A stretch of 43,356 bases of DNA. It comes from Flavobacterium sp. (GTDB lineage: Bacteria > Bacteroidota > Bacteroidia > Flavobacteriales > Flavobacteriaceae). The stretch spans positions 1 through 43,356 of the forward strand of contig JADFAM010000102.1 in the NCBI GenBank assembly GCA_015665265.1. Reading direction: 5' to 3'. Below the pieces are notes generated by a model. The model did not search any database. It saw only the letters and a list, made by a program, of their open reading frames with translations, and was not told the origin of the DNA. Shown here in pieces: positions 9,984-43,224 of this stretch (position 1 is the first letter of the stretch; each line of letters opens with the position of its first letter). A program made the translations under genes and the position numbers.

Positions 9984-9985
9984 CT

Positions 9986-11527: not shown

Positions 11528-11545
11528 ACAAAAAAATATAACAAA

Positions 11546-20529: not shown

Positions 20530-20805
20530 ATGCTAGAATTTTTTAAGAATAATATATGGCTAATCGCTTTTATTATTTGGGGGCTACCCTTGTCTTATTA
20601 CAGAAGTAATTTTAGAAAAATTGTCTATCAAACAAATGATTGGAAAATTAATATTAAACCCCTATTTATAAAAGAAATAAAAGCTCTTTTTGGAACTATG
20701 TTTTCAGAAAATTCCTCATATATAAATGCGAGAAATTTTTATCGATTTTATCTACTAGTCTATTTATTTTTATTTTTGTTGTACCAAATTTATGGTACAT
20801 CTTGA
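20530..20805 (+). CDS. Small hypothetical membrane protein
   Basis: Starting at the ATG at 20530, 1 bp after the DUF1295 stop, this gives 91 residues; a longer frame exists from 20494 but it overlaps the DUF1295 coding end and adds only a non-hydrophobic dozen residues. Two hydrophobic helices are visible, NNIWLIAFIIWGLPLSYY and FYRFYLLVYLFLFLLYQIY, joined by a basic and aromatic middle. The family is unknown. Its last 16 bases overlap the 3' end of the convergent PfkB-type kinase gene, and an inverted repeat (TGTACCA...TGGTACA, 20780-20799) spans the junction. Confidence 0.65.
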   Translation: MLEFFKNNIWLIAFIIWGLPLSYYRSNFRKIVYQTNDWKINIKPLFIKEIKALFGTMFSENSSYINARNFYRFYLLVYLFLFLLYQIYGTS

Positions 20806-26281: not shown

Positions 26282-27172
26282 CTAGTCTTTTATAGGTAGG
26301 TATATTTGAGCCTCCCATTTCAATTCATCACCTCCAAAATTTGGATTGCTATAAAAAACTTCCAGGGGTTTTTTTACTATCTCAATGTCATTATTTCCTG
26401 CATAATCTAACAATGCATACCAAGCTCTATCAGAGGTAATATAGTTTCCATTATAGGACGCTTTTAAAGCTTTTACTCCACTATATTGTTTATACTGAAT
26501 TCGGGGATCTATTGGAAGAGAATCACTTTTTATGACAGGAAAACAAAAATTATAAGCAATACTATCATTTTGAGTGTTCCAATTTGTTATTTCAACAAAA
26601 GGTGTTCCATTCATTTCAATATTTTCAGCAGAAAGGATAGAAGTTAATAGGGAATAATTTTGCATCATTCCTCTGGCTTTTTCAATTTGCAAACCTTTCA
26701 TTGGAATATAAGCACAATAAGTAGTTCTAGTACTATCTATACCAACTACACGTACTCTAATTTTGTTTAAGTGCTCTTTTAGCTTATCTATAAAATCAGT
26801 GATGGTGTTCTGTGTTCTTTTTTCGAAATCTGTAGTTCCAAATGGAATAGAAATTTTATTAGCAAAACTATGATCAATGTCTGTTACGTAAACATTTACT
26901 TTAGAAATAGAATCATTTACTGAGCTTATAGACCAATTATAATTGAAGGTCGAGTCTTTAACTATAATCTGCTGTGTTAAGTTTTTAAGATTTTCTTGTT
27001 GAATAGGGCTTGAGTTTTCTAGACTTGTATTCCAAAGTTTGATAGATTGATTAATAGTCCCTGCAGTTGTTTTTACTTTAAAAGTAACTAAATAATCATA
27101 GGGTTTTATAATGAAATACCATAGTAAAAAACCAATTGTTAGAAATCCTATAATAGTACTAATTTTTTTCAT
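26282..27172 (-). CDS. Membrane-anchored SRPBCC plus GyrI-like effector-binding protein
   Basis: A 296-residue protein with one N-terminal helix (TIIGFLTIGFLLWYFIIK), then an SRPBCC-like START fold (about 25-130, opening YDYLVTFKVKTTAGTINQS and containing an IKLW-type loop). The second half (about 140-296) resembles the GyrI/AraC effector-binding domain, with YIPMKGL, KALKASYNGNY and FYSNPNFGGDELKWEAQIYLPI. No helix-turn-helix is present, so it is not a transcription factor. Both folds bind small hydrophobic or cationic molecules. It ends the haloperoxidase/ASPIC gene run, 46 bp after the haloperoxidase stop, and is probably in the same transcript. Confidence 0.75.
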   Translation of the reverse strand: MKKISTIIGFLTIGFLLWYFIIKPYDYLVTFKVKTTAGTINQSIKLWNTSLENSSPIQQENLKNLTQQIIVKDSTFNYNWSISSVNDSISKVNVYVTDIDHSFANKISIPFGTTDFEKRTQNTITDFIDKLKEHLNKIRVRVVGIDSTRTTYCAYIPMKGLQIEKARGMMQNYSLLTSILSAENIEMNGTPFVEITNWNTQNDSIAYNFCFPVIKSDSLPIDPRIQYKQYSGVKALKASYNGNYITSDRAWYALLDYAGNNDIEIVKKPLEVFYSNPNFGGDELKWEAQIYLPIKD

Positions 27173-27218
27173 TTACCTTTAAATATTGTAATAAATAAAA
27201 TATATGAATTGTTATATT

Positions 27219-28556
27219 CTACTTGTTTAACATTGTTAATTTTTCAGTAACCAATTCTCCTATTTTTCTTCCTTGGCCTACTCCTACTTCTACAGCAGCT
27301 CTATAATGAATACCTCCATACATTCTACTAATTGCAGCTTCGTTTGCAGCATGTTTAAATGATTTATAACTTCGAATTGGTAATCCAAAAGGAAGTTCAG
27401 TATCATCAGCAAAACTAAAATTATCTCCAAAAATTGAGGTCAAAACTGTTGATGCTGCACCAGACACAACAGAATGACCACTTGTGTATTCTGGAAAAGG
27501 AGGTGTTTGTAAAATGGGTTTCCATTCATCGTCAAAATAGGTGTTTATTAATGTTTCTGGACGCACCAAATTACTTCTATATTTTTCATCCCAACAACTA
27601 ATAAACGCGTCAGCAATAGCAATAGATGTCTTTGTGTAAGCAAAAACTGTTCTATTAAAATCTGCCTTTTCTTTTTTAGTAGCAATTTTTGTGATACCAA
27701 TCCAATGAGCTCCTGGAGTTATTTTTTTTACAGCAAACATCAAATGTCCACGAGTCACAGATACGTATGGATTACAATCCCAAAATTGAGCAATGGCAAT
27801 TTCTTCTGAGCTGTCACCCTTTTTGGTAATTTCTTTACTAATCTCGTAAACCTCAACAAGTTCTTTGTAAAAGTCAGAATCTTTATTCATTGAAAATTTT
27901 GGTGGAGGCACTGGTTTAAATTGGTCTGCTGATTCTAAAACAAAAGACCGTATTTTATCCCAGTGAGGTTCTAAACCATCCATATATGAAGGAGGTGTAG
28001 GTTGCCATCTCCCCTCATCGTTAGAATCTACACTAAATTTTGGCATCGTTCTAGTTTGTGCATAATTATCTTTATTCATCCAGTCTGTAATATATGCTGC
28101 AACCTCCAATCCGTAAGCTTTTGACTCCCTGAATTCTCTAGGATTAGTGGCTTCCCAAACATTGTATAAGCTATCTCTATGTTTTTCTATTTTAGCCTCA
28201 GAAAAAATCAACTGTTTGCTTAAATGTATATGTGCAATTAATGCCGCAAGTGGATAATTTATCTTGGTTGGTTGGTTTGGAGAAGGAATAGCTCCTAAAT
28301 GATTTATTTGATTTTTTAAAGAAGAATATGTAGAATCATTCTGAGCTAATATTTCATAAGCTGCTATATTTGGATACACAAATACTCTACTAGCTACTGG
28401 TGGAGAAAATATATCATGAATCATAACTTCTACTACTTTGTCTATAGACGTGTGAAAATGATCTGTAGTAATTTCTATGGGTGCTGAAATCTCTTTACAA
28501 GAAAACAATACCAAAAGAATTGCAGTTGTTAGTAAAGAAGTTTTGAATTGTTTCAT
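27219..28556 (-). CDS. Vanadium-dependent haloperoxidase-like PAP2 lipoprotein
   Basis: The ATG at 28556 gives 445 residues with a lipoprotein signal (LLVLFSC, Cys20); a longer frame from 28595 overlaps the upstream gene and adds a non-signal stretch, so it is not preferred. The vanadate-site residues are all present at the spacing of fungal chloroperoxidase: Lys325, Arg332-Pro333, Ser359-Gly360-His361 and Arg411 with His417 (SRMYGGIH). Phe354, 7 residues before the catalytic His361, corresponds to the Phe found in chloroperoxidases where bromoperoxidases have His. It may oxidise halides with peroxide, or be a related phosphatase. It starts 8 bp after the last ASPIC/UnbV gene. Confidence 0.85.
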   Translation of the reverse strand: MKQFKTSLLTTAILLVLFSCKEISAPIEITTDHFHTSIDKVVEVMIHDIFSPPVASRVFVYPNIAAYEILAQNDSTYSSLKNQINHLGAIPSPNQPTKINYPLAALIAHIHLSKQLIFSEAKIEKHRDSLYNVWEATNPREFRESKAYGLEVAAYITDWMNKDNYAQTRTMPKFSVDSNDEGRWQPTPPSYMDGLEPHWDKIRSFVLESADQFKPVPPPKFSMNKDSDFYKELVEVYEISKEITKKGDSSEEIAIAQFWDCNPYVSVTRGHLMFAVKKITPGAHWIGITKIATKKEKADFNRTVFAYTKTSIAIADAFISCWDEKYRSNLVRPETLINTYFDDEWKPILQTPPFPEYTSGHSVVSGAASTVLTSIFGDNFSFADDTELPFGLPIRSYKSFKHAANEAAISRMYGGIHYRAAVEVGVGQGRKIGELVTEKLTMLNK

Positions 28557-28564
28557 AATCTTAT

Positions 28565-31500
28565 TTATTCCATTAATTGATATACTTGAGCCCAATCATT
28601 ATTGATAGTTGCTAAAACATATGGTTTATTATTCACTTTAATTATATCTAATTTTTTTACTGCTTTTAGGCTAAAATCTAATCCTATTTTATTTCCTAAG
28701 ATAACTTGCTCTTCATCTATGATAAGTGCCCCTGGAAAAGAGTCGAATCTACCATGAAAGGGTGTAACACCAAAATAATTTCCTGCTGCCAAAATTTCAT
28801 TTTCCCCATCAAAATCAAAATCATACTCTAAAAAAGAAGAAATTGGAGATACTTGAAGCTCGTTTATAAAAGGCACAAATTCAAATCTATTATTTTCATT
28901 TTTTAGATACCCTGATGCAAGCGTTTGTACCTCTAATATAGTCGCTTTATTTAAAATTGATTTTTCAAAAATTTCATCAATCGATTTTCCAGCCATACTT
29001 TTATAGGTTGTAAACTTTTTTCGTAAGCTTACTATCTGACTGGCTAACTCGTCTAATCCCAACAATGGATAATAGGACCCGTTTTTGTAATTGCAAAGAA
29101 TAGTCTCAGTACTTCCGTTACCATCAAAATCTGCATAATACATTCTTAACGGATGTTTCTTTGTTGCTTTAAATTTTGAGTTTTTCCCCCAATTTCCAAG
29201 AAGATAATCCATATCTCCATCTTTATCGATATCAAAAGGGGTAATCTGTTGCCACAATCCTTTTAAACCCGAATCAATAATTTTTTCTTCCTTAAAAGAC
29301 CCTTCTTTATTTATAAAGAACTTTGGACTCATCCATTCTCCAACCAAGATAAGATCTGTAAAACCATCTGAATTGTAATCTTCCCATATAGCATCTGTAA
29401 TCATTCCTATATTCTGAAAAGGCTGATTTTTTAAAAGAGAAAAAGACCCTTTATTGTTTTTTAAAATATAGTTGTTTGGTATTGCTCCAAAATTATTTGA
29501 CACAGAATTACTTCCAATAAACACATCTAAATCTCCATCATTATCATAATCATGTGCTTCAATAACTGACGCATTTTCAAAATATTCAGGCAACTGCTCT
29601 TTTGTAAAACCAGTATTAGTCTGAATAAAATAGGCGTCTAGTAAAGGTTTCATTTTATCATAAAAGTCTGCACCCCCAGTTCCAACTAAAAGATCATTTA
29701 TGGCATCATTATTAAAATCTGCAATGAGAGCTACAACATCTTCATTTATGGAATCATTTTCAAAAATTTGAATCTTTTTCTCCTCATAAAGCCCTTCTTT
29801 TTGAAGATAAACTTTAGCTGGATTAAACTTAGATCCTCCAAAATAAACATCATCTTTACCATCATTATTTATATCGCCAACTGCAACCGCTGGACCTCTG
29901 TCTGATGTTTGATAAGGAATAAGTTTTTGACGATTAAAATCTGTATAATTATCTTCTGAATGACTAAAGTTAAGTCCTAAATTGTTTGAAACCTTTTTAA
30001 AAATTGGTGTCTCTTTTTTTAATAAAGTTGAATAATTAAAAGGTTTTGTTTTTTCTGGACTAACAACTATTTGTTGATTAATAGTAATATTTCTTAGAGT
30101 TTGATATGTTTTGTTTGGCCAAACAACTTTAATAGAATCTACTTGTTGAACAGCACCATATCCAAAGTGTATCATTGGCTCTGAAGAAGATTGAAACCCT
30201 CTCACTGTATACAATTCTTTAAATTGTAATTTTCCTTCATGGTATGAATAAACTTTGGTTCCAATACCAAAAGTATTAGGTGCTGGGTAGTCAAACTTTA
30301 ATTGAAGATAATTTGATAGATTATCCGTTTGATTTATATATAATGATACTTCTTCATTAATATTACTAACTACCATGTCTATATCTCCATCATTGTCTAA
30401 ATCACCCAGAGCTGTAGCTCCTGATACCCCTTTTTTATTTGAAATCCATTGACCAGATTTATCCTCAAATTTTAAATTCTTCGCTCCTTTAAACATATAA
30501 TTGTGAGCTTCTCCTGATGGCATCATTTGAAGGGCCTCTTGATCTACTAACTTTGTATTATCAATTTTCTTCTGAATTTGATCATTTGAAATAAATTTGA
30601 TAAAGTCTAAATCATTAGGTCTTTTTGAAATCCCATTAGAAATAAATAAGTCTTGTTCTCCGTCTTGATCAAAGTCTGCAAATAAACTACTCCAACTCCA
30701 ATCTGTGGCTGCAATTCCACTTAGCAACGCAGTCTCTAAGTAACTTGAATTTTGTTGATTTACATACAGCATATTTCTAGTAAACTGATAATGATACCCA
30801 AATTTTTGAGTTCTTAGTTTTTGAATTTGAATATTATCATCTCCTTCAGATGTTTTAAGGACTACTTCATCCTCTGGAAGCATATCTAAAGAGATAATGT
30901 CAGGTAATCCATCATGATTAATATCTGCTACGTCATTTCCCATGGAAAATCTGCTAGTGTGTCCAAAGTAATTTTTTAATTGATCAGAAAAGGTGCCATC
31001 TCCATTATTTATGTAGTAATAATCATCTTCATGAAAATCATTACCAACATATATATCAGGATATCCATCTTGATTAAAATCTGCTATAGAAATACCCAAT
31101 CCATAACCATTAATTCCACCAAAAATTCCCGCAGCTTCACTTATATCTGTGAAGCTTCCTCCGTCATTTCTGAGTAATTTATCTCCAGTTTGCTCGTTTC
31201 TTTTATAACGTAAATCTACTTTACCAAAAGATTCTTGAGTGTGAATAGCATGGTTTAATAGATAGATATCTAAATCTCCATCTAAATCAAAATCTAAAAA
31301 TGCTGCAGAAGAACTATAGGAATCAAAATCTAATTTATATTTTTCTGCGCTTTCCGTGAATGTTTCATCTCCATTATTAATAAATAGCTCATTGTACCCA
31401 TAAAATCCATTAACACCAACTACAGCACACGCATAAATATCTAGTAAGCCATCTCCATTAATATCTCCCATTACTGCTCCTGTATTCCATGAACTATTTC

Positions 31501-31810
31501 CTGAAACATTAGCTTTATTGGTAATATCCTCAAATTTTAAATTTCCTTTATTTATAAAAAGTTTGTTTTTCTCTTGATTTGCAGAAAGAAAAATATCTGT
31601 GAGCCCATCATTATTTATATCACCAAGAGCTACTCCTCCTCCATTGTAATAATATAAATAATCAAGAATATTTAGATCATCAGTTGGAGTAATTGTGTTT
31701 TCAAAAGCCAACCCTGTCTCTTGAGATGTTGGGTTCTTAAATAGCAGCTCTTTTTTATTACATGCATAAAAGAGTATTGAAAAAACAACTATGATTATCT
31801 TTTTATTCAT
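28565..31810 (-). CDS. FG-GAP/VCBS repeat, ASPIC/UnbV lipoprotein, paralog 3 (last)
   Basis: A 1081-residue lipoprotein with lipobox FYAC (Cys17). Many D-x-N/D-x-D-G-x-x-D calcium loops (e.g. GDINNDGLTDIFLS, DFDLDGDLDIYLL) form two FG-GAP/VCBS beta-propeller regions (about 50-480 and 620-1060). Between them, at roughly 500-585, is the ASPIC/UnbV domain with GIGTKVYSYHEGK, VRGFQSSSEPMIHFG and DSIKVVWPN. The C-terminus keeps YDFDFDGENEILAAGNYFG. Such proteins are usually labelled RNA-binding, which is unsupported; a surface scaffold or ligand-binding role is inferred. Its start overlaps the stop of the middle paralog by 8 bp. Confidence 0.88.
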   Translation of the reverse strand: MNKKIIIVVFSILFYACNKKELLFKNPTSQETGLAFENTITPTDDLNILDYLYYYNGGGVALGDINNDGLTDIFLSANQEKNKLFINKGNLKFEDITNKANVSGNSSWNTGAVMGDINGDGLLDIYACAVVGVNGFYGYNELFINNGDETFTESAEKYKLDFDSYSSSAAFLDFDLDGDLDIYLLNHAIHTQESFGKVDLRYKRNEQTGDKLLRNDGGSFTDISEAAGIFGGINGYGLGISIADFNQDGYPDIYVGNDFHEDDYYYINNGDGTFSDQLKNYFGHTSRFSMGNDVADINHDGLPDIISLDMLPEDEVVLKTSEGDDNIQIQKLRTQKFGYHYQFTRNMLYVNQQNSSYLETALLSGIAATDWSWSSLFADFDQDGEQDLFISNGISKRPNDLDFIKFISNDQIQKKIDNTKLVDQEALQMMPSGEAHNYMFKGAKNLKFEDKSGQWISNKKGVSGATALGDLDNDGDIDMVVSNINEEVSLYINQTDNLSNYLQLKFDYPAPNTFGIGTKVYSYHEGKLQFKELYTVRGFQSSSEPMIHFGYGAVQQVDSIKVVWPNKTYQTLRNITINQQIVVSPEKTKPFNYSTLLKKETPIFKKVSNNLGLNFSHSEDNYTDFNRQKLIPYQTSDRGPAVAVGDINNDGKDDVYFGGSKFNPAKVYLQKEGLYEEKKIQIFENDSINEDVVALIADFNNDAINDLLVGTGGADFYDKMKPLLDAYFIQTNTGFTKEQLPEYFENASVIEAHDYDNDGDLDVFIGSNSVSNNFGAIPNNYILKNNKGSFSLLKNQPFQNIGMITDAIWEDYNSDGFTDLILVGEWMSPKFFINKEGSFKEEKIIDSGLKGLWQQITPFDIDKDGDMDYLLGNWGKNSKFKATKKHPLRMYYADFDGNGSTETILCNYKNGSYYPLLGLDELASQIVSLRKKFTTYKSMAGKSIDEIFEKSILNKATILEVQTLASGYLKNENNRFEFVPFINELQVSPISSFLEYDFDFDGENEILAAGNYFGVTPFHGRFDSFPGALIIDEEQVILGNKIGLDFSLKAVKKLDIIKVNNKPYVLATINNDWAQVYQLME

Positions 31811-34800
31811 TGATCAAAAATAATTTTGGTTTTTCATTATTAATTGCTGCTAATAGATATGTTTTACCACTTTTATCACTAATAGTTTTTAGATGCTTTA
31901 CTTCATTTTTTATGACAAAACCTGAGGTATTGTAATTCTGCCATTTAAAATCAAGTGATCCGTCACCTAGTAGAACAGAACCATGACTAGCGTCTAATCT
32001 TGAGTATTGAGGTTTAAATTCAAAGTTATTTCCTGCCATAATAATATCTAAATTTCCGTCATTATTAACATCTGTACAAACAATTCCACAGACACAAGAA
32101 AGTTGAACACGACTTGGAAGTTTTTTCACACTAAAATTCCAATCACCTTCATTAACTGCAATAATTGATTCTGAAATTGTACTCTGCTTCATAATTGAAT
32201 TTTTGAAAATTGATGCAGAAAATAGCTCATCAACAGACTTTTTTGCATATTCTGAAGCCTTTAAATTTTGCTTTTTTAAAGATACTAACTGAGCTGTTAA
32301 TTCTTTTTTCATATGAATTGGATAGTCTTTTCCATTCTTATGATTAGTCATAATTTGCTCAATTGTTCCATTATTATCAAAATCATTCACCCACATTTTT
32401 ACTGGATTTTCTGAAGAAGTTTTATGGATTGTATTACTTCCTTGATTTCCAAGTATAAAATCTATATCACCGTCATTATCAAGATCTGCTGCCTCAACAA
32501 CATTCCACATTCCAAATAAATCATCTAATGTTGATTTTTGTTTGATAAGCCTTCTTCCATTGTTTATAAAGATTTTTGGTGTATCCCATTCCGAAACAGT
32601 AATCAAATCTTTTTTACCGTCCTTGTCTATATCTTTCCATATTGCATCAGTCATCATTCCAGCACTCTTAACATCATAGGCAACTTTTTCTGTGGTATCT
32701 GCAAAAGTTCCATCACCGTTATTTTCTAGAAATTGATGTGTTGGGTCTATCCCATAAGTAGCCACCATACTTCTAGCACCTACAAAAACATCAATATCAC
32801 CATCATTATCAAAATCATAAGGAGAAATCACTGCAATATTTTTTCTTAAGGCTGGTAGTTTATTTTTTGATGTCTCAAAAGTTCCCTTACCATTGTTAAG
32901 ATATAATCTTACTTTATAATTATTTTGTTGTCCTATTTCGTTTCCACCAGACCCAATCATCAAATCTAAATTTCCATCACCATTGGCATCGAAAAAAGCA
33001 GCTGTAGTATCTTCAAACATAGCATCTTTATCAAAAGATTTTTGGATTGATAGTGCTGTTTTTCCATTACCCAAATTAAGGTATAATAGCCCGGGTTGAT
33101 TTTTAGCTCCACCAATATAAAAATCTTCGTTACCATCATTATTTACATCTCCAATAGCCAAAGCAGGCCCTTCTTGGGAGAGCATTTTATTAATTAGTCC
33201 TTCGTAGTCAAAATCTGAATAACTGTTTTCTTGATGTTTTTGGAGCTTAGTCTTTAAAACTTCTGAAACCAATTTCTTGTTTTTCTTGGGTAGTAAGGTT
33301 GATTGTATTTCAGTTGCCTCAGATTGCTTTAGGGTTAAAGTTGAATTTACTTCAATATTATCCCACTTTTGTGTTTTGTTATTGGGCCAGATAATACGCA
33401 ATGAGTCAACTTTTGTTGCTTTCCCTAGGCCAATTGTCATTACATAATCCATGGAAGACTGAAATCCTCTTGAAGGCATTTGCTCTTGTACGTATATATT
33501 GTTGTTATTAAAGATTTTCACAGTACTTCCAATGGCAAATTTATTGGCTTCTGTACCTTCCAATTTAATTTTTAAATAACTATTGTTAGTTAATGAATCT
33601 GTATTGTTTCTATAAACAAAAGGGAACATATTTACATTATTAACAACCAAATCTAGATCGCCATCATTGTCTAAATCTCCGTAGGCAACTCCATTTGATA
33701 AACTGGGTGTTTCAAAACCCCATTCCTTATTTGCATTGTCAAAAGTAATATCACCATTATTTTTATAAGCATAATTAGGCTGAGGTTTTACAGGCATTTT
33801 ATTAATAATAGAATCAATCGCTTGCTTTCTACCTGTTAAAGCCATTTTTTGAATGATTTCATTAGCAAAGAAATTAACAAAATCTAGATCTGTTAAATCA
33901 TGATTAATTCCGTTTGTAATAAATATATCTCTATTTCCATCATTGTCCATATCAAAAAGTAATCCAGCCCAGCTCCAATCTGTTTTGGCAACTCCGCTAA
34001 AATAAGCAACCTCAGAGAACGTACTATTCCCATTGTTTAACTGAAGTGTATTTTGAATATATTGTTGAGAAAAATCTTTACTTTGTTTTAGTTTAAAAAC
34101 ATTATACCCTTCAAATTCCATTACAGACTTTACACGTTGATCTGCTTCTGGCAACATGTCTGTAATAAAAATATCTGCATTACCATCATTGTTTATGTCT
34201 GCAATGTCTACACCCATAGCAGATAAACTTAAATGGGATGTCCAATTTGTAATATCCTCTTTAAATGTACCATCTTGGTTATTGATATACAGATAATCTC
34301 GTTCGTAAAAGTCATTAGAAACATAAATGTCTGGATATAAATCCCCATTCATATCAGTAACCATAACTCCTAAGCCAAAACCTATTAAACTTCCATAGAT
34401 TCCAGCCTGCTCACTAACATCTACAAATTTACCATTGTCGTTTCTTAACAACATATCTCCAACCCCTCTAAAAATTGCAGGAACATTTTCCCAATCTTGA
34501 GCTCTTTTATCTCGCTGTTCTGCATATCCAAGACTACTTACAGGAATGTTGCTGTTATTTAAAATATAAGCATCTAAATCTCCATCTTTATCATAATCAA
34601 AAAAAGAAGCATGGGTAGAAAATCCTGTTTTAGCAAGGTTAAATTCGGCAGCTTTTTCTGTAAAGGTTAAATCTCCATTGTTAATGTATAAATCATTATC
34701 GTGATTGTTACCCTTTAAATTTCCAGCATTGCTTACGTAGATATCTAATAATCCATCCTGATTTATATCTACCATTACAACTCCAGTAGACCAAGGTTTG

Positions 34801-35159
34801 TTTCCTTCAATTCCGGCACTTACAGAAATATCCTCGAATGTTAGATTGCCCTTATTAAGATAGAGTTTGTTAGCAACCATATTACCTGTTAGGTAAATAT
34901 CAGCTAAGCCATCATTATTAATATCACCAATAGCTACACCTCCGCCATTATAAAAGTTTCGGTATTTAAAAATATTAAAATTCTTTTGGTTTTTAACTTT
35001 GTTTAAAAAATCAATCCCTGTCTCTTTTGCGTCTAATAATGTGAAAAGAGTCTCTGTATCATTTATAGATAAATTATTATTTTTATCTGTACTACAAGAG
35101 TAAAAAACTACTGTAAGTAGCACTAGAATAATTGCTCTCATTCTAAATTGTATTATCAT
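31803..35159 (-). CDS. FG-GAP/VCBS repeat, ASPIC/UnbV lipoprotein, paralog 2 (middle)
   Basis: Has 1118 residues if the Met at 35159 is used, which overlaps the stop of the first paralog in an ATGA arrangement; the Met six codons on (35141) gives a more typical lipoprotein signal (MRAIILVLLTVVFYSC). Layout is as in its neighbours: calcium-loop propeller, ASPIC/UnbV at about 523-610 (FAIGSTVKIFNN, SRGFQSSMDYVMTIGLG, DSLRIIWPNN), second propeller, and a conserved end with MAGNNFEFKPQYSRLDASHG. It differs from the other two in having MDNDGNRDIFITNGINHD and a longer first part. Ca2+ would stabilise the loops. Confidence 0.88.
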   Translation of the reverse strand: MIIQFRMRAIILVLLTVVFYSCSTDKNNNLSINDTETLFTLLDAKETGIDFLNKVKNQKNFNIFKYRNFYNGGGVAIGDINNDGLADIYLTGNMVANKLYLNKGNLTFEDISVSAGIEGNKPWSTGVVMVDINQDGLLDIYVSNAGNLKGNNHDNDLYINNGDLTFTEKAAEFNLAKTGFSTHASFFDYDKDGDLDAYILNNSNIPVSSLGYAEQRDKRAQDWENVPAIFRGVGDMLLRNDNGKFVDVSEQAGIYGSLIGFGLGVMVTDMNGDLYPDIYVSNDFYERDYLYINNQDGTFKEDITNWTSHLSLSAMGVDIADINNDGNADIFITDMLPEADQRVKSVMEFEGYNVFKLKQSKDFSQQYIQNTLQLNNGNSTFSEVAYFSGVAKTDWSWAGLLFDMDNDGNRDIFITNGINHDLTDLDFVNFFANEIIQKMALTGRKQAIDSIINKMPVKPQPNYAYKNNGDITFDNANKEWGFETPSLSNGVAYGDLDNDGDLDLVVNNVNMFPFVYRNNTDSLTNNSYLKIKLEGTEANKFAIGSTVKIFNNNNIYVQEQMPSRGFQSSMDYVMTIGLGKATKVDSLRIIWPNNKTQKWDNIEVNSTLTLKQSEATEIQSTLLPKKNKKLVSEVLKTKLQKHQENSYSDFDYEGLINKMLSQEGPALAIGDVNNDGNEDFYIGGAKNQPGLLYLNLGNGKTALSIQKSFDKDAMFEDTTAAFFDANGDGNLDLMIGSGGNEIGQQNNYKVRLYLNNGKGTFETSKNKLPALRKNIAVISPYDFDNDGDIDVFVGARSMVATYGIDPTHQFLENNGDGTFADTTEKVAYDVKSAGMMTDAIWKDIDKDGKKDLITVSEWDTPKIFINNGRRLIKQKSTLDDLFGMWNVVEAADLDNDGDIDFILGNQGSNTIHKTSSENPVKMWVNDFDNNGTIEQIMTNHKNGKDYPIHMKKELTAQLVSLKKQNLKASEYAKKSVDELFSASIFKNSIMKQSTISESIIAVNEGDWNFSVKKLPSRVQLSCVCGIVCTDVNNDGNLDIIMAGNNFEFKPQYSRLDASHGSVLLGDGSLDFKWQNYNTSGFVIKNEVKHLKTISDKSGKTYLLAAINNEKPKLFLINE

Positions 35160-38100
35160 TTGTGTAACTTTATAAAAATAGGTACGTCGTTGTTTATTGA
35201 AATGACATAAAACATTTCGTTATTTATTGATAACTTATCTATGTTTCGTGCTTCACCAGAAATATCAAAATCTTGTTCTAAACTTTCATAAAAAAACCCT
35301 TTTTTATTATTCAACAAAATTAAGCCATGCGAGGCATCTAATTTACCCAATTGTGTATTAATATTGTAATTATTTCCCACTAAAAGAACATCTGTATAAC
35401 CATCATTATTAAAATCGTCTACAGCAATATCATTTACAGAAGATATTTGTGCCATAAACGGCAATTGATGTTTTTTAAATGTATTACCCCCTTGGTTTTC
35501 AAAATAACTACTACCCAATTCAAAAACTTGTTTTTTAAACGCTCCATTAATTTTATCTTTTGGAAGAAGCTCTGTAAAGGAAGCCTCTGCAAAATCTTTG
35601 TAGGATAAGAATTTTTTATTTAAAAATGGGATTTGTTTCACCAATTCATCTTTTGATGCAAAAGGAGTTTCTTGTTTTTGATAAAAATAAGTAATCACAG
35701 GATCTATAGTCCCGTTATCATCAAAATCATTGCTGTATAGTGTTATTGGTTCGTCAGAAGTTGCTTTTAATCGAGTATTCAAGCCCCAGTTACCAACAAT
35801 GAAATCTATATCTCCATCCTTATCAAAATCATTTGCTTTAATGCTATTCCACCATCCATTTGTTTTTTGTAATTGTGTATTTTTTTGTAAGGTTAATTTT
35901 TTACCATCATTCATAAATACTTTTATTGGCATCCAGTATCCAACAACTATAGCATCTAAAAAATTATCTTCATTCAAATCAATCCAAACTATGTCTGTTA
36001 CATTTCCACTTTCTTTAAAATCAATTCCAAATTTTAATGTTACATCTTTGAAATTTCCTTGACCATCATTCTCAAAAATATATTGAGTTGGTGTTTTCCC
36101 AAATTGCCAGGGAACGATGTTTGAAAGTATTGAAATATCCATATCGCCATCATTATCAATATCTATGGCAGAAACTTTTGATGCATTAGTCTCTATTTTT
36201 TTGAACTGTATTGAATCTCTTTTAAATTTTCCTTTATTATTAATATATAATTTAGGTTGCAAAGGGGTTCCTTTTTTAAATTCATTTCCACCACTAACTA
36301 CCAATAAATCGTTGAAACTATCTCCATTAGCATCGAATAAGACAGCATATACATCTTCATGTATTGCATCATTTCTAAATACATCTGATTGTTCTGATGT
36401 GAATTTTCCTTTTTTATTCTGAATAAAAAGTTGACTAGATTGAGATTTTCCTCCGCCAATAAAAAAATCTTCTAAACCATCATTATTGATATCAGAAACG
36501 GCTATATGTGGTCCTAAATTTGAACTAGCATAAGGAATAATTTGATCTCTATTAAATTCTAAAGACTGAGAGTCCTTGTGCTTGAAGTCTATAATAGAAT
36601 CTTTATTAACAAAAAAAGAGGGTTGCTTCCCTAAAACCTCATAAGAATAATTTTTCAGAGCATTCTTATAATAAACTACAATTTCTTGATTAGGTTTTAT
36701 ATCTCTTAGTGTTTCATGTGCATTAGTACTCCATATAATTTCTAAAGAATCTATTACTTTTGCATCACCTAATCCTAGGTGTATTTTAGGTTCAACAGAA
36801 GATAAATACCCTTTTGTTGTGTAATTTTCTTCAACAATTACTTTGTTTTGGTAATAAGCTTTAACAGTAGTTCCAATTCCAAAAATATTAGTAGAATTTC
36901 CTTTAAATTTAATTTTCAAATAAGAATTCTGAGAATTTTGATCTGATGTATTCTCCAATACAAATGCGTCTTCATTAATATTATTAATAACCAAATCTAG
37001 ATCTCCGTCATTATCTAGGTCTACTGTAGTCCCTCCATTACTATATGAATTACCATGAGAGACCCACGTTGAAGTCACATTCTTAAATGTTTTATCTTGA
37101 TTGTTCCTATAAAAATAATTTTTTACTTTTTTTTGAGGTATTTGTTTAGATAATTCTAAGTTTCTTTGAGATTTTTCTGTTGCTAATTGTTTTTGGATTT
37201 CCTCATTTGAAATAAAATTTATGTAATCCATATCATTTGTTGCTCCAAGAATACCGTTAGTGATGTACAAATCTTTAAAGCCGTCATTGTCATAATCTGC
37301 AACAATTGGACTCCATGACCATTCTGTTGCTGCTATTCCACTTAAATAAGCTGTTTCACTATATGTACCGTTACCGTTATTATAATGCAATGTGTTTTGC
37401 ATAAACTGAGGAGCATATCCATTTTTTAAATAATATTGATAAGTTTGGTAAGGAAATTCTAGCCCAGATGTTTTATAGGTTGTTAAGTTTTCAGGGAGCA
37501 TATCAAGAGAAACAATGTCCAGTTGAGAATCATTATTCAAATCTGCAATAGCATTTCCCATGGAATAGTGTGATGTATGTCCTAGGATGGTTTTGTCTTT
37601 TGAAATCACATCCAAAAAAGTTTTATCTTTTTGATTGATATAGAGATAATCATTCTCAAAAAAATCATTACCAACATAAATATCAGGGTAGCCGTCATTA
37701 GTAATATCTCCTATTGATACTCCTAACCCATATCCAATCTTTCCCTGAAATATGCCAGATTGAGTTGAAACATCAACATAAGTTCCTTGTTTGTTTTCAT
37801 ATAGTTTGTCTCCAGACATCTCATCTTTTTGACGTCTTGTATCTCCTTTACCATAATTACTGTTAGGGTATAAAGAATGATTCATTAAAAAGAGATCTAA
37901 ATCTCCATCTTTATCATAATCAAAAAAAGTTGCTTGTGTTGCTAAAGAAACGATGTCTAAACCAAAAAGTGATGCTGATTCTTTAAAAACTGGAATCCCG
38001 TTTTTATCTAAACCTTGATTAAGGTATAATAAGTTTTTCCCTTTAATAGCATTGTGTTTACCTACTTTGCAAATGTAGATGTCTAAAAACCCATCGTTAT

Positions 38101-38449
38101 TTATATCTACAGTGGTAACTCCGGTAGTCCAGGGTAAAGGATTATTAATATGTGCCTCTGTTGTAATGTCTTTAAACTGTAACTCTCCTAGATTTAAAAA
38201 TAATTTATCTTCAGTTTGGTTCCCTGTAAAATAGAGATCAGCTAATCCATCATTATTAAAATCTGCCGCAGCTACTCCAGCTCCATTGTAGTAATAGAGA
38301 TAATTTAAAATATTTAAGTCAACAGTACTAGTGAGGTTGTTTTGAAAATTTATTTGAGTCTTATTTTTTTTTAATGAAACAAATAAAGAATTATTAGTAG
38401 TACAAGATATTAATGATAGAAGCAAACTGAATGCTATAAACTCTCTCAT
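35156..38449 (-). CDS. FG-GAP/VCBS repeat, ASPIC/UnbV lipoprotein, paralog 1 (first)
   Basis: Encodes 1097 residues with lipobox LISC (Cys16). Calcium loops such as ADFNNDGLADLYFTG, VDINNDGFLDIYI and DYDKDGDLDLFLM define the first propeller; ASPIC/UnbV lies at about 506-590 (FGIGTTVKAYYQN, TKGYLSSVEPKIHLGLG, DSLEIIWSTN), then a second propeller and the conserved GNNYNINTQLGKLDASHG end. It begins the three-paralog run, 101 bp downstream of susD, across a strong hairpin that may lower its expression relative to susCD. Confidence 0.88.
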   Translation of the reverse strand: MREFIAFSLLLSLISCTTNNSLFVSLKKNKTQINFQNNLTSTVDLNILNYLYYYNGAGVAAADFNNDGLADLYFTGNQTEDKLFLNLGELQFKDITTEAHINNPLPWTTGVTTVDINNDGFLDIYICKVGKHNAIKGKNLLYLNQGLDKNGIPVFKESASLFGLDIVSLATQATFFDYDKDGDLDLFLMNHSLYPNSNYGKGDTRRQKDEMSGDKLYENKQGTYVDVSTQSGIFQGKIGYGLGVSIGDITNDGYPDIYVGNDFFENDYLYINQKDKTFLDVISKDKTILGHTSHYSMGNAIADLNNDSQLDIVSLDMLPENLTTYKTSGLEFPYQTYQYYLKNGYAPQFMQNTLHYNNGNGTYSETAYLSGIAATEWSWSPIVADYDNDGFKDLYITNGILGATNDMDYINFISNEEIQKQLATEKSQRNLELSKQIPQKKVKNYFYRNNQDKTFKNVTSTWVSHGNSYSNGGTTVDLDNDGDLDLVINNINEDAFVLENTSDQNSQNSYLKIKFKGNSTNIFGIGTTVKAYYQNKVIVEENYTTKGYLSSVEPKIHLGLGDAKVIDSLEIIWSTNAHETLRDIKPNQEIVVYYKNALKNYSYEVLGKQPSFFVNKDSIIDFKHKDSQSLEFNRDQIIPYASSNLGPHIAVSDINNDGLEDFFIGGGKSQSSQLFIQNKKGKFTSEQSDVFRNDAIHEDVYAVLFDANGDSFNDLLVVSGGNEFKKGTPLQPKLYINNKGKFKRDSIQFKKIETNASKVSAIDIDNDGDMDISILSNIVPWQFGKTPTQYIFENDGQGNFKDVTLKFGIDFKESGNVTDIVWIDLNEDNFLDAIVVGYWMPIKVFMNDGKKLTLQKNTQLQKTNGWWNSIKANDFDKDGDIDFIVGNWGLNTRLKATSDEPITLYSNDFDDNGTIDPVITYFYQKQETPFASKDELVKQIPFLNKKFLSYKDFAEASFTELLPKDKINGAFKKQVFELGSSYFENQGGNTFKKHQLPFMAQISSVNDIAVDDFNNDGYTDVLLVGNNYNINTQLGKLDASHGLILLNNKKGFFYESLEQDFDISGEARNIDKLSINNEMFYVISINNDVPIFIKLHK

Positions 38450-38495
38450 CTTGTAAAAAGTTATTATATTAAAAAAGTAAATACGTTTTACAAAT

Positions 38496-38527
38496 AATTA
38501 AAGAGGGTATAAATACCCTCTTTAATT
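38496..38527 (-). terminator. Strong hairpin between susD and the ASPIC/UnbV genes (terminator or attenuator)
   Basis: Perfect 14-bp arms (38496-38509 and 38514-38527; core AAAGAGGGTA) with a 4-base loop, starting 23 bp after the susD stop. On the minus strand the stem ends in TTTAATT followed by ATTTG, so the T-run is broken; partial read-through into the downstream genes or transcript end-processing is plausible. Confidence 0.7.
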
Positions 38528-38550
38528 AATATCAAATATATAAGATATGC

Positions 38551-40119
38551 TTAGTATCCTGGATTTTGAACTAAATTAGGATTTGACAACAATGCTGTAA
38601 GTGGAATTGGGAATAAGTTTTTATTCGTATCTCCAACAGCTGCGGGGTCTTTAAACTCCCAGTCTTTTGTAAATTGACCAAATCTAATTAAATCGTTACG
38701 TCTAAAAAATTCAACATACAATTCTCTACCTCTTTCATCTATCATATCATCTAGACTTACAGATCCTAATGGTGTTGCATTTCTTATAACTCTTAACTCA
38801 TTTACTTCAGCTAAAGCTCCACCGGAGTCACCACTTCTTAACATAGCTTCTGCTCTCATTAAGTGAGCATCAGCAAATCTAAAAATGATTTCATGACTTC
38901 TAAAAGAAGAAGAACCTGTTCCATCGAATGGGTGGTATTTAATCACTCTAATTGCCTGAGTTTCTGAACTATTAGTTAAACTAAAATCTCTTGTGAAATT
39001 TAAAGGATTTCCAGCTCTATCCGATAATGGTTGTCCAGTAGCTGAATATTGCTGCCCAATTAAAAATCCATAACCAATACCGAAGTTAGTATCTTCTGTG
39101 GCGGATGATGCATTTGGAACAAACCCTCTTCTTTCCTCTTGATTGTTTAGAGGAGTACCATCTTCTAAACCATAGTTCTCATTAGTATCTCCTTCAAATA
39201 AGTCATAGAACTCAGCTAAAGTAGAAAACCCATTCCATCCTCCTCCTCCGTTGTCTGGAGTAACGATGTTATAGTGCATTCCATTCCAAATTCTATTTCC
39301 AATACCAATTTCACCATACAAAACAGTTTCTGAATCAACAGATGGCAAAAAGATATCAAAATATCCTGATTGAAGAGCAAAACCGCTAGCTTCAACTGCG
39401 TCTACAGCATTAATTACTTCTTGGTAATTAGGTGTTGCTCCAGTATAGCGCTCGCTGTTTAAAATTAATTTAGCTTTTAAAAAGTTTGCTGCTGCTTTAG
39501 AAGCTGCCTTTGTTGCATTACTTGGTGAAGTATTTGGTAATACTGATATGGCTTCATTTAAATCATTTAAAATATATGCATAAGCTTCCGCTGGTGATAG
39601 AACAACAGGTGTTGATACTGGATCATCAGTTGCTTCTCTAAATGGATTTTGACCCCACATATCTAACACAAAGAACATATTAAAAGCTCTTAGAAACTTT
39701 GCTTCTGCAACTTGTTGTTGAGAAGAGTTACTTAATGGATCTATAATCTGCGTTGCAGCCAATACTTTAGAATTTAATTGATTCCAGGTACTTAATAAGA
39801 ACCCGTGATCTACTTTCCAAGTATGATTGTGAAGTGAACGCCACAATCCATTATCTCCCCAGTCACTACCTCTTGTAGGAATTACCTGCTCATCAGTAGT
39901 TACTTCATTTAAAGCAAAGAAATTTGCTTGATCTGTTAACATTCCCCAAGTGGAGGAGTATAACCCTGCCAAAGAAGCTTCTGAATCAGCTAAACCTGTA
40001 AAAGAAACGTCTTGAATCACTGAATCTGTTGCCTCAAGTTCTAAATCTGAACATGATTGTAAAGCAACTATAGAAATAAGTGATAGTATAACTATATTTA
40101 AATTAAATTGTTTTTTCAT
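38551..40119 (-). CDS. susD: SusD/RagB-family outer-membrane lipoprotein
   Basis: A 522-residue lipoprotein with lipobox LQSC (Cys23) followed by SDLELEA, an acidic stretch compatible with export to the cell surface. The SusD fold is shown by AEAKFLRAFNMFFVLDMWG, the TPR-like helices (AYAYILNDLNEAISVLP, AASKAAANFLKAKLIL), RFADAHLMRAEAMLRSG and the closing DERGRELYVEFFRRNDLIRFG. It should cap the SusC channel and bind the imported ligand. It begins 12 bp after the susC stop. The ligand cannot be inferred from the sequence; no SusE or SusF gene follows. Confidence 0.95.
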   Translation of the reverse strand: MKKQFNLNIVILSLISIVALQSCSDLELEATDSVIQDVSFTGLADSEASLAGLYSSTWGMLTDQANFFALNEVTTDEQVIPTRGSDWGDNGLWRSLHNHTWKVDHGFLLSTWNQLNSKVLAATQIIDPLSNSSQQQVAEAKFLRAFNMFFVLDMWGQNPFREATDDPVSTPVVLSPAEAYAYILNDLNEAISVLPNTSPSNATKAASKAAANFLKAKLILNSERYTGATPNYQEVINAVDAVEASGFALQSGYFDIFLPSVDSETVLYGEIGIGNRIWNGMHYNIVTPDNGGGGWNGFSTLAEFYDLFEGDTNENYGLEDGTPLNNQEERRGFVPNASSATEDTNFGIGYGFLIGQQYSATGQPLSDRAGNPLNFTRDFSLTNSSETQAIRVIKYHPFDGTGSSSFRSHEIIFRFADAHLMRAEAMLRSGDSGGALAEVNELRVIRNATPLGSVSLDDMIDERGRELYVEFFRRNDLIRFGQFTKDWEFKDPAAVGDTNKNLFPIPLTALLSNPNLVQNPGY

Positions 40120-40131
40120 TTTTATATTATT

Positions 40132-43100
40132 TTAAAATTTTGCGTTAACTCCAAAAGTAATTGTTGTAGGATTTGGATATGCTCCATAATCCATCCCAAT
40201 AGAAGGTAAAGCACCTCCTGTTGCAGAATTTACTTCAGGATCTAATCCAGAATAATCAGTAGACAACCATAAGTTTTGTCCTGTTACAGAAAAAACCATA
40301 GATTTAAAGACTCCTTTTCCAGATAATGGCATATCATATGCTAAAGATAAATTTTGTAATCTCACAAAATCTCCTTTCTCCAAGAACCTTGTAGATGCAG
40401 CAGCTGACGCTCCTAACGCTTCTCCACTTGTTAATGTTTCTGGAGTTACATTTCTAGTTGTATTAAATGCCCCTGCTGTAAAGAAAGCATTTGCAGTGTT
40501 GTTATATACATAATGACCAAACTGACCACTAAAATAAGCAGACATTGACCATCTCTTATAGTTAAGGTTAGTAGATAAACCTCCTGTTAAGTTAGGTAAA
40601 GCACTCTTACCTACAAAACTTTTGTCTTCGCTTATAATTGGCTGACCAGCATTATCATATCCATCAAACTGAAGTAAGTAGTAAGAGAATAATGGGTATC
40701 CTTCTTGTAATCTCATTGCAAAGGCCCCACTCAAACCAGGCCCGTTTACATCAGCAAAATCATATTGTCCTGAAAGGTTTTCAACCATGTTATCATTATA
40801 TGCAACATTAAAGTTTGCAGACCAGTTGAAATCTTCACTTTGAACTAGATCATACCCTAATGAGAATTCAACCCCTTGGTTTACAATTTTAGAATCTGGA
40901 AGATTTCTAAATTTTTGATCTAATATGGCTGGTTGTGCTTCAGGAACTAAGAATAATAAATCCTTTGTTTCTTTTCTATACACATCAAGACTTCCTGATA
41001 ATCTATCATTATTAAATCCAAAATCTAATCCTGTTGAATACTGGATTGTAGACTCCCACTTTAGATCATTTCCACCAAATGAAACAATTGCATTTCCACC
41101 TAAATTAATATCTCCACCGTCATTTGGATTTAATCCAGTCCAACGAGATCTATTCACGTAGTTACCATAACCTACTCCTTCTTGATTACCAGTAATACCA
41201 GCACTCAAACGAAGTTTTAAAGTAGACATATTGCTATCACTCATAAAGTCTTCTTCATTTAATTTCCATGCAAAAGCACCTGATGGGAAATACCCATATC
41301 TATTAGCTTCTGGAAAAGCAGAAGAACCATCAGCTCTTAATGTAGCTGTAAATAAGTACTTATCTGATAAAGTATAGTTAACTCTCCCAAAGAAAGATTG
41401 TAACTCAGTAGTATTGTCGTAAGTATCAACAGCTAGAGATCTAACTCCTGAAGTTGAAGTACTTGGAGAAAAAGTATTGGTAGTAAAATCTAATCCATCC
41501 CATCCTCTAACGATAACTCCAGATAAATTAGGAGCATAAGCGAATTGTTGATATTGATCAGTTATTTCACCCGAAATTCCAGTAACTACATCTTTCAATG
41601 TAGAACCCATCAAGTCCATATCTGTAGTTGAGAAACCCCATGCTCCAGAATACAATCCTGAACTTTGAAAACTTTGGTATGAAAAACCTCCTAATACTTC
41701 TAATTTAGAATCAGTATATTCTTTATTATATGTCAAAGTAGCTTCTAATAGTTCGTTTTTAACTTCTAACATATTGTAAGCACCTCTTCCATTTCCAGCT
41801 ATACCACTTGATAGACCTAAAACATCTCCTGAAGTAATTGAAAAATTATCTGAATCTGATTGATCTAAACCTAAGGTAACTTTAGCTTTTAAGTTAGAAG
41901 TCAAATCATATTCTAAAGATAAGTTAGCTAAATATCTATTTGTATTTGTAATTCCTTGTGTGTACGCTAATAAGTTAGTAGGGTTAACCAAAGTACCTCC
42001 ATCAAAATCTGGATCATTAGGCCATGTAGGATTCGCAGAAAAAGCCGCTCCTAATATATCTCCTCTGTAACCTGCGGTTCCACCTGTTGGAGCTAAATTA
42101 TCATCAACTCGTGAAACAGAACCTTGGAAAGATAATTTAAGTTTGTCATTTAAAAACCTATGGTTAAGATTTACTCTAGCAGTAAGCCTCTCAAGGTTTG
42201 AATTTTCAACAATACCTGTTTGATTCCCAAATCCTAAAGTTGCAATATAAGATCCTTTGTCATGAGACTTGGAATAACTTAAGTTTTGATTATGAGATTG
42301 AGCTGTTCTAAAAATAACATCTTGCCAATCGGTTGACGAACCGTAATCGCTTCCAGCACCAACTGGTAAACCTAACCTAGCTCTTTCTGAAAGAAATTGA
42401 CTTGAATTTAATAAATTGTAAGTATCTAGTGCCTTAGAAGAACTAACATTCGCTTGGTAATTAAATTCACCTTTCTTAGATCTTCCCGATTTAGTAGTTA
42501 CAATAACAACTCCATTTGCTCCTCTAGACCCATAGATTGCAGTAGCTGAAGCATCTTTTAAGATACTGATGCTTTGAATATCATTAGGATTTAAAAAGTT
42601 AAGTGGATTTTTGGCTGGATTACCTCCAAGACCTATAACGTTAGCACCTGCTGTTGTTGCTCCTCCTGATAATGGAACTCCATCAACAACAAATAAAGGA
42701 TTGTTATTAGAACGTACAGAGTTAGACCCTCTAATACGAATATTAACGCCAGCCCCAGGAGCACCACTTGTATTTGAGATTTGAACCCCAGCAGTTTTAC
42801 CTTGTATTAATTGTTCTGGTGACGAAATAACACCTTTGTTAAAATCTTCTGCCTTAACAGAAGTAACTGCACCTGTAGCATCTTTTACAGATGTTGATCC
42901 ATAACCAATAACAACAATCTCATCCAATTCAGTAGAGTCTTGTGTCATAGTCACGTTGATAACAGATTCAGAACCTACTGTTCTTTGCTCAGTTTTGTAT
43001 CCAAGATAGTTGTAAACTAACACATCACCTTGTTTGGCGTTAATAGTGTAGTTTCCATCAAAATCTGTTTGGACTCCTGTTGTCGTACCTTGAATGGTAA

Positions 43101-43224
43101 TACTAACACCTGGTAAACTACCATCTGCGTCAGAGACAACTCCCTTGATTGATTGACCATAAGTAATACTACCAACAAGTAGCATAATAATCAACAAAGG
43201 TTTTTTAAGTAAACTATTTTTCAT
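40132..43224 (-). CDS. susC: SusC/RagA-family TonB-dependent transporter
   Basis: A 1030-residue outer-membrane transporter. A signal peptide ends near TYGQ (residue 24), then comes a carboxypeptidase-regulatory-like domain (about 26-95) with SDADGSLPGVSITIQGTTTG. The SusC-type junction DEIVVIGYGS (101-110) leads into the plug (about 110-235, with IRGSNSVRSNNNPLFVVDGVP and YGSRGANGVVIVTTKSG), then the barrel up to a final aromatic Phe. No STN extension is present, so it does not signal through an anti-sigma factor. It should import an oligomer or other ligand with SusD, energised by TonB-ExbBD encoded elsewhere. It is the first gene of the minus-strand block. Confidence 0.96.
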   Translation of the reverse strand: MKNSLLKKPLLIIMLLVGSITYGQSIKGVVSDADGSLPGVSITIQGTTTGVQTDFDGNYTINAKQGDVLVYNYLGYKTEQRTVGSESVINVTMTQDSTELDEIVVIGYGSTSVKDATGAVTSVKAEDFNKGVISSPEQLIQGKTAGVQISNTSGAPGAGVNIRIRGSNSVRSNNNPLFVVDGVPLSGGATTAGANVIGLGGNPAKNPLNFLNPNDIQSISILKDASATAIYGSRGANGVVIVTTKSGRSKKGEFNYQANVSSSKALDTYNLLNSSQFLSERARLGLPVGAGSDYGSSTDWQDVIFRTAQSHNQNLSYSKSHDKGSYIATLGFGNQTGIVENSNLERLTARVNLNHRFLNDKLKLSFQGSVSRVDDNLAPTGGTAGYRGDILGAAFSANPTWPNDPDFDGGTLVNPTNLLAYTQGITNTNRYLANLSLEYDLTSNLKAKVTLGLDQSDSDNFSITSGDVLGLSSGIAGNGRGAYNMLEVKNELLEATLTYNKEYTDSKLEVLGGFSYQSFQSSGLYSGAWGFSTTDMDLMGSTLKDVVTGISGEITDQYQQFAYAPNLSGVIVRGWDGLDFTTNTFSPSTSTSGVRSLAVDTYDNTTELQSFFGRVNYTLSDKYLFTATLRADGSSAFPEANRYGYFPSGAFAWKLNEEDFMSDSNMSTLKLRLSAGITGNQEGVGYGNYVNRSRWTGLNPNDGGDINLGGNAIVSFGGNDLKWESTIQYSTGLDFGFNNDRLSGSLDVYRKETKDLLFLVPEAQPAILDQKFRNLPDSKIVNQGVEFSLGYDLVQSEDFNWSANFNVAYNDNMVENLSGQYDFADVNGPGLSGAFAMRLQEGYPLFSYYLLQFDGYDNAGQPIISEDKSFVGKSALPNLTGGLSTNLNYKRWSMSAYFSGQFGHYVYNNTANAFFTAGAFNTTRNVTPETLTSGEALGASAAASTRFLEKGDFVRLQNLSLAYDMPLSGKGVFKSMVFSVTGQNLWLSTDYSGLDPEVNSATGGALPSIGMDYGAYPNPTTITFGVNAKF

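Follow-up and report, generated by a model that had tools for sequence, protein, structure and literature searches.

What benefit would a bacterium draw from encoding three giant propeller lipoproteins and a vanadium-dependent peroxidase next to a nutrient importer? This question is raised by a 43,356-nt stretch of DNA from Flavobacterium sp. (Flavobacteriaceae), hereafter called the window, and more precisely by its minus-strand genes between positions 26282 and 43224. These genes encode SusC and SusD, three giant lipoproteins containing propellers and an ASPIC/UnbV domain (termed ASP_C, ASP_B and ASP_A in the order of transcription, or collectively ASPs), a vanadium iodoperoxidase-family protein (VIPO) and a SRPBCC-GyrI-like protein. 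A preliminary description of this DNA had assigned all of them to a single strand and estimated that the propeller genes alone occupy about 10 kb. Both points are correct, the three ASP genes spanning positions 28565-38449, i.e. 9.9 kb. It had also proposed that the genes form a joint system, and our analysis of gene order across Bacteroidota strongly supports such an ASP-VIPO-SusCD unit. As for its role, we propose, as a reading that has about an even chance of being right, a utilisome-type surface machine for nutrient uptake, in which CRTAC1-like propellers replace binders of the SusE/F type and carry an iodide-oxidising VIPO.

Conservation of the ASP-VIPO-SusCD unit

Three sets of loci were compared. 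The named set consists of the best 80 of 397 relatives, whose titles correspond to Flavobacteriaceae genera or uncultured relatives; because only the best were kept, this set leans to close kin. The family draw comprises 149 genomes of 148 genera. VIPO was detected in 61 of them (E<=1e-30) at 66 places, and the 65 places outside the window were taken. The phylum draw comprises 395 genomes, 74 of which contain VIPO; the 88 strongest non-family places were examined and the 21 weakest left out. At least 10 loci are common to the named and family sets.

An ASP gene was found directly upstream of VIPO (for the named set, within 1.5 kb and on the same strand) in 71 of the 79 named loci with enough sequence, at 50/64 places of the family draw and at 51/84 places in other families. 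Most named loci contain several copies, since at least two ASPs are present in 63/66 and three in 39/66. When at least 15 kb of upstream sequence was available in the family draw, at least two ASPs were found at 44 of 58 places, SusC together with SusD at 40, and both features at 37. Of the 81 places with at least 12 kb upstream in the other families, 62 possess a same-strand ASP, accompanied at 50 places by SusC or SusD. The association persists in at least 10 other families, where VIPO is about 36-56% identical. The two genes are also tightly coupled: in the adjacent pairs of the family draw, the distance from the ASP end to the VIPO open frame ranges from -84 to +44 nt, start codons not being set. 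Conversely, starting from the ASP_A relatives (at least 50% identity), VIPO lies directly downstream in 34 of the 35 listed. The rarity of a haloperoxidase beside the ASPs, which had been put forward as a sign against a joint system, is thus not what we observed, VIPO usually adjoining them.

The sole exception among the ASP_A relatives comes from a genome without a VIPO match (G047). VIPO may occur more than once: in several genomes outside the family, as many as four places were counted. A 192-amino acid protein without Pfam match (L123:9486-10061 and relatives) was also noticed within 18 loci, encoded on the same strand, most of these loci being of type 2 (see below). We found no description of a SusCD-ASP-VIPO unit among the listed matches in the open-licence literature, outside of which the original VIPO paper lies, and no open-licence paper that mentions ASPIC, UnbV and SusD together. 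Among these papers, PMC5064120 alone combines at least three of FG-GAP, vanadium, haloperoxidase and SusD.

The ASP paralogues

The three window ASPs are 1081, 1118 and 1097 residues long and contain 7, 9 and 9 separately significant FG-GAP_3 stretches, with one UnbV_ASPIC domain each. Domain searches thus agree with the predicted architecture of paralogues of about 1,100 residues with two propeller regions around an ASPIC/UnbV domain. The succession of a FG-GAP propeller and an UnbV_ASPIC domain is that of CRTAC1/ASPIC-UnbV proteins. Each ASP also displays 10-12 DxDxDGxxD-like motifs. In the source genome (2.37 Mb, 98.7% complete), PF07593 was found in the three window ASPs only. No member of the SusE/F families was detected at E<=1e-3 among the seven proteins encoded from susC to the GyrI gene.

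Pairwise identity between the three ASPs is 39.6-40.6%. A tree was computed for 224 ASPs with FastTree and rooted at midpoint; its clades mostly agree with operon position. A clade of 61 leaves (support 1.0) gathers the VIPO-proximal copies: 36 ASP_A of type 1, the type of the window, 12 proximal copies of type 2 and 13 leaves from other families. A second clade of 85 leaves (support 1.0) contains mainly second-position copies, plus 18 third-position and 2 first-position ones. The third copy of type 1 (ASP_C) belongs to a clade of 27 leaves (support 0.993), 5 of which are first-position copies from other families, and that of type 2 nests within the second-position clade. The third copies of the two types thus sit in different clades and apparently have two separate origins. 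A group of 43 leaves, mostly proximal copies from other families, falls outside the named clades, and some deep nodes are poorly supported (0.27, 0.37). Judging from identity and tree, the ASPs are old paralogues; recent copies lacking a conserved order, the other sign against a joint system named in the preliminary description, are not what was found. Distinct clades linked to position would also fit a hetero-oligomer.

One could have imagined that the ASPs serve as an iodinated scaffold, by analogy with thyroglobulin. This candidate was rejected, their tyrosine content (3.6-5.2%) falling inside the range of the other locus proteins (2.9-6.5%).

VIPO and the Zobellia iodoperoxidase

VIPO matches the Zobellia galactanivorans enzyme of known structure (4cit/4usz) over nearly its full length (residues 20-457, E 1e-214) and belongs to the PAP2 superfamily, which confirms its earlier assignment as a vanadium-haloperoxidase-type lipoprotein. 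The 2014 study of this enzyme reportedly names it a vanadium iodoperoxidase in its title. The vanadate site is intact: seven residues (W, K, R, F, H, R, H), whose roles and numbering we assume to be those of the site, are invariant in 157/157 aligned homologues including that of the window. The serine of the TSGH motif is conserved in 148/157, and the residue presumably equivalent to D322 is an aspartate in 102/157. On this basis, VIPO would oxidise iodide in vivo, and it could possibly act on the imported ligand as well.

In Zobellia uliginosa (L034), we observed the order ASP_C-ASP_B-ASP_A-VIPO-SRPBCC, as in the window, the examined stretch stopping before any SusCD. The VIPO of this array is closer to 4cit than the window protein is (893 bits over 436 residues). 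The solved enzyme therefore probably originates from a unit of the SusCD-ASP-VIPO kind.

The VIPO tree has several deep nodes of low support and does not separate type 1 from type 2 at the depth printed. Mirror distances between VIPO and the ASP positions, uncorrected for ancestry and not used as evidence, gave r values from 0.30 to 0.83. In type 1, VIPO follows position 1 (r 0.69) better than position 2 (r 0.30); in type 2, position 2 comes first (0.73, against 0.64 for position 1).

Organisation of the window operon

The features of the operon and of its lineage-specific partners are given in Table 1. Between the susC ATG and the window end there are 132 bp. Successive ASP genes overlap by a few bases, and the VIPO ATG at 28556 lies 8 nt past the ASP_A stop. 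This ATG is the most likely start, a TTG at 28595 having been set aside. As judged by eye, SusD, the three ASPs and VIPO have an early cysteine behind a hydrophobic stretch, as lipoproteins do, and would be located at the cell surface. A SusC-SusD pair and further predicted lipoproteins are thus encoded in a single gene array, as in utilisomes and polysaccharide utilisation loci.

Table 1. Coordinates of the features of the SusCD-ASP-VIPO locus and of its downstream partners in the window (aa, amino acids; pLDDT, predicted local distance difference test)
Feature	Positions	Strand	Evidence
susC, TonB-dependent outer-membrane barrel, 1030 aa	40132..43224	-	TIGR04056, 671.7 bits; nearest solved chain 8aa4 (dextran utilisome entry)
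susD, surface lipoprotein lid, 522 aa	38551..40119	-	PF07980, PF14322; nearest solved chain 3ck7 (starch SusD), E 1.5e-32
Perfect 16-nt hairpin in the susD/ASP_C spacer	38495..38528	-	fold z -5.1
ASP_C, double-propeller ASPIC/UnbV lipoprotein, type-1 third paralogue	35156..38449	-	PF13517, PF01839, PF07593; clade of 27 leaves, support 0.993
ASP_B, double-propeller ASPIC/UnbV lipoprotein, position-2 paralogue	31803..35159	-	
ASP_A, double-propeller ASPIC/UnbV lipoprotein, VIPO-proximal	28565..31810	-	domain search; VIPO directly downstream in 34/35 listed orthologues
VIPO, vanadium iodoperoxidase-family lipoprotein	27219..28556	-	4cit/4usz, E 1e-214; PAP2 PF01569
Membrane-anchored SRPBCC-GyrI-like small-molecule-binding protein (predicted)	26282..27172	-	model pLDDT 90; Foldseek to CtaZ, CTR107, BmrR, SbmC
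GH13, oligo-1,6-glucosidase or sucrose-isomerase-like, no signal seen; lineage-specific partner	24448..26121	-	1uok, E 3.6e-183
MFS transporter, lineage-specific partner	23126..24427	-	PF07690; TIGR01301 sucrose symporter far below cut-off
GH13 alpha-amylase-like lipoprotein, lineage-specific partner	21673..23100	-	PF00128; early cysteine
PfkB sugar kinase, lineage-specific partner	20790..21680	-	PF00294

Stems of at least 8 bp are present in 48/73 susD-ASP spacers against 7/109 ASP-ASP junctions, window lengths being different in the two groups. This enrichment would fit a partial terminator, an attenuator or a processing site after susD, with SusCD therefore made in excess. The susD-ASP_C hairpin is absent from the list of our terminator scan; promoter and terminator consensus scans of the window returned sites no more numerous than in shuffles, and Rfam gave no match at gathering scores.

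The gene following VIPO, found directly downstream of it in 70/76 named loci, had been described as encoding a SRPBCC-GyrI protein. Its product has no Pfam or NCBIfam match, and its model (pLDDT 90) displays an N-terminal membrane helix and a C-terminal half similar to GyrI/BmrR. The model agrees with the GyrI part of the earlier assignment, and the SRPBCC label of the N-terminal half depends on how its elements are ordered and on a weak aromatase/cyclase match (4xrt).

Neighbouring genes and ligand class

A GH13 gene begins 161 bp past the GyrI gene on the same strand, bringing carbohydrate-active enzymes into the locus. In close relatives of the window, GH13, MFS, GH13 and PfkB genes come after the unit, and in Tenacibaculum GH97, MFS and trehalase genes do. 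Neighbour clusters of ASP-VIPO loci, each named from one representative, were pooled over the three sets. They comprise SSF transporters (38 loci), LacI regulators (25), GH65 (18), MFS (18), xylose isomerase (15), GH13 (10), GH97 (6) and trehalase (6, all in the named set). The GH65 representative was tested and its closest solved relative is the GH65 enzyme 7fe3. This recurrent proximity to sugar-uptake genes would make a ligand of the sugar type, perhaps an alpha-glucoside, likelier than a phenolic or sulfated compound. The preliminary description had suggested a halogenated, phenolic or sulfated ligand, which these recurrent neighbours do not bear out, though some lineages differ. Other contexts indeed associate the unit with a fucosidase and a copper-monooxygenase-like protein, with GH3 and a multihaem cytochrome, with a sulfite dehydrogenase or, in one lineage, with a phosphoesterase.

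Further genes were noticed around these loci. In five of them (L164, L169, L170, L173, L183), a weak match to copper type II monooxygenases stands beside SusD-like_2, ASP and VIPO, and four of the five also encode an AhpC/TSA-like protein; both proteins are perhaps further redox members of the unit. ASP-VIPO pairs for which no SusCD was detected were found in L226, L228, L230, L231 and L234; their surroundings include a weak HmuY-like match as well as LptF/LptG and PaaA genes. In L031, L039, L047 and L063, the ASP array is preceded by a sulfite dehydrogenase-like gene and by a small gene with a weak haem-binding match. L050, L055 and L071 have luciferase-like and SSF genes upstream of their ASPs; in the window itself, an alkanesulfonate monooxygenase-like gene of the luciferase family, a SSF transporter gene and a dienelactone-hydrolase-like gene follow each other at 8832-12526 (+).

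Another SSF symporter-like gene of the window, at 15497-17146 (+), has homologues (64-78% identity) near VIPO in 10/80 named loci, on the opposite strand and at varied positions. The SSF family includes the sodium/iodide symporter, and this gene was considered as an iodide transporter. The idea was dropped, its closest solved relatives being sodium/glucose cotransporters.

Discussion

How could such a utilisome-type machine work? SusC and SusD would capture and import a sugar-type ligand, in this lineage most likely an alpha-glucosidic di- or oligosaccharide. Two or three giant lipoproteins, supposedly stabilised by calcium, would stand in for SusE/F, each consisting of a CRTAC1-like propeller with its ASPIC domain, then a second propeller. 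These lipoproteins would assemble on SusC into a hetero-oligomeric platform that holds the ligand, the proximal paralogue ASP_A carrying VIPO. In the presence of peroxide, VIPO could act where the importer opens, oxidising iodide or a different small anion, and, on the side of the periplasm, the anchored GyrI-like protein would bind a small organic ligand. The peroxidase could serve there for iodine capture, for peroxide removal or for another end.

Several points weigh against this reading. ASPIC is found in 114/149 family genomes and VIPO in 61/149, at least 53 genomes possessing ASPIC without a VIPO match; an ASP therefore does not need VIPO. No ASP lies within 1.5 kb of VIPO at 14/64 family places and at 33/84 others. 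In 11 of the 88 non-family stretches, three of them short, an ASP precedes VIPO with no SusC or SusD detected by profiles, which miss SusD-like_2 proteins and perhaps others, so that SusCD may be non-essential to the pair. As for the sugar connection, the counts favour it, within limits. A sugar-type gene occurs within 7 kb in 38/57 family, 36/66 other-family and 29/72 named loci, the clusters having been picked after inspection and the counts standing without a control set of other SusCD loci. GH65 lies at most 45 kb from VIPO at 25/58 places in GH65-bearing genomes against about 1.8 expected, a figure that supposes even placement in a genome assumed to be 3.5 Mb, with no correction for common descent. 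On the opposing side, GH65 is missing from the genome of the window, which has a single LacI-type sensor match, on contig 7, away from the unit; the LacI/GH65 arrangement of related genera is therefore absent here as far as seen. The sugar genes themselves vary by lineage (xylose, fucose, GH3), and sulfite dehydrogenase is encountered as well. Finally, a disaccharide has no obvious need for a TonB-dependent importer.

Among the alternatives, the one that our analysis would tie most directly to physiology is that the unit ensures the sugar- and calcium-dependent iodine uptake of marine Flavobacteriaceae. Sugar oxidation would provide peroxide, VIPO would form hypoiodite, and the supposedly calcium-binding ASPs, together with SusCD, would trap or import the oxidised iodine. 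Iodine uptake by Arenibacter C-21 requires glucose, oxygen and calcium (PMC5064120), and at least five 4usz homologues are encoded in its genome. Moreover, Arenibacter sp. P308M17 (L068) possesses SusD, two ASPs, VIPO and SRPBCC, and Z. galactanivorans is able to accumulate iodine according to the part of PMC9296495 consulted. However, no sugar oxidase appears among the neighbour clusters run through Pfam and no peroxide source is visible, the ASPs, considered for their tyrosine content only, showed no feature of iodine binding, and up to four VIPO places per genome in several other-family genomes would seem excessive for an iodine store. We thus consider this explanation unlikely, though it is the strongest of the rivals.

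A slightly less probable explanation is that VIPO removes hydrogen peroxide at the importer and shields the cell from the oxidative bursts of algae or plants during feeding. Such a role would suit a close homologue of an iodide-oxidising peroxidase, and an AhpC/TSA-like protein is present in four non-family loci. In the part of PMC9296495 consulted, vIPO3 of Z. galactanivorans is up-regulated on Ascophyllum compared with alginate, but vIPO3 is not necessarily the peroxidase of a SusCD-ASP-VIPO locus. Peroxide removal would also leave the coupling of VIPO to one ASP clade and to sugar genes without explanation.

One would also wonder whether VIPO, as a member of the PAP2 superfamily, uses its vanadate site for phosphate and acts as a surface phosphatase that frees phosphate from organic esters before import. 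Phosphorus SusCD systems are known in Flavobacterium, as far as the part of PMC8115612 consulted goes, but the main text of that paper contains neither haloperoxidase nor PAP2. Two neighbours would suit this role. One is a calcineurin-like phosphoesterase (PF00149, about 1,200 amino acids, L065:3565-7431 and relatives), downstream and on the other strand in 48 named loci; it comes, however, from a single lineage and from the named set only, the other sets having little downstream sequence. The other is a 289-amino acid protein with weak, below-cut-off NHL/phytase-like matches (L079:12190-13053 and relatives), which follows the unit in the same orientation in 70 of the pooled loci. Given that the close homologue is known, by the title of its study at least, as an iodoperoxidase, we hold the phosphatase hypothesis to be improbable. 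It is still less credible, and indeed very improbable, that SusCD-ASP and VIPO are neighbours by descent only and share a site but no function: a xylose operon does separate VIPO from the ASPs in L064, no ASP was detected near VIPO in L028, L035 and L043, and unrelated downstream genes (clusters 1-3) are also conserved in one lineage, but the association outlasts deep VIPO divergence in other families, occurs in both ASP types despite their unlike third paralogues, and is kept at near-zero ASP-VIPO spacing.

Returning to the utilisome-type machine, a broader and more tentative proposal, to which we give clearly less credence, would be that of a phylum-wide "redox utilisome", a SusCD importer with a vanadium peroxidase borne by its CRTAC1-like hetero-oligomer, which would make hypoiodite chemistry at the cell surface an integral part of nutrient uptake; for the marine flavobacteria, it would correspond to the sugar- and calcium-dependent iodine-uptake system that is so far genetically unassigned. 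If true, this proposal would place the vanadium iodoperoxidase in a physiological context and, with hypoiodite chemistry built into import, would bear on marine iodine cycling and on algal feeding by these bacteria. In any case, a solved iodine-oxidising enzyme and widespread ASPIC lipoproteins of unassigned role travel with a nutrient importer, which offers a testable setting for both.

Comparison with known systems

A system with GH13, GH65 and GH97 is already known, and that gene context is found here too, with trehalase beside six named loci; haloperoxidase, FG-GAP, VCBS and ASPIC are absent from the main text of its paper. A parallel can also be drawn with murine CRTAC1 (9etn), from which the bacterial ASPs differ by their second propeller, their lipoprotein appearance and their position-specific sets. 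The levan and dextran utilisomes of Bacteroides thetaiotaomicron, as presented in the part of PMC7618045 consulted, likewise associate SusCD with surface lipoproteins from one locus, and the window SusC is nearest to the dextran SusC chain. Their accessory components are a glycan-binding protein and a glycoside hydrolase, whereas those of the window are propeller/ASPIC proteins and a peroxidase. Lastly, the Z. galactanivorans enzyme resembles VIPO by near-full-length homology and a conserved vanadate site, and its close Z. uliginosa homologue belongs to the same kind of array. The former is known as an isolated peroxidase, whereas the window VIPO is a member of a SusCD-ASP unit.

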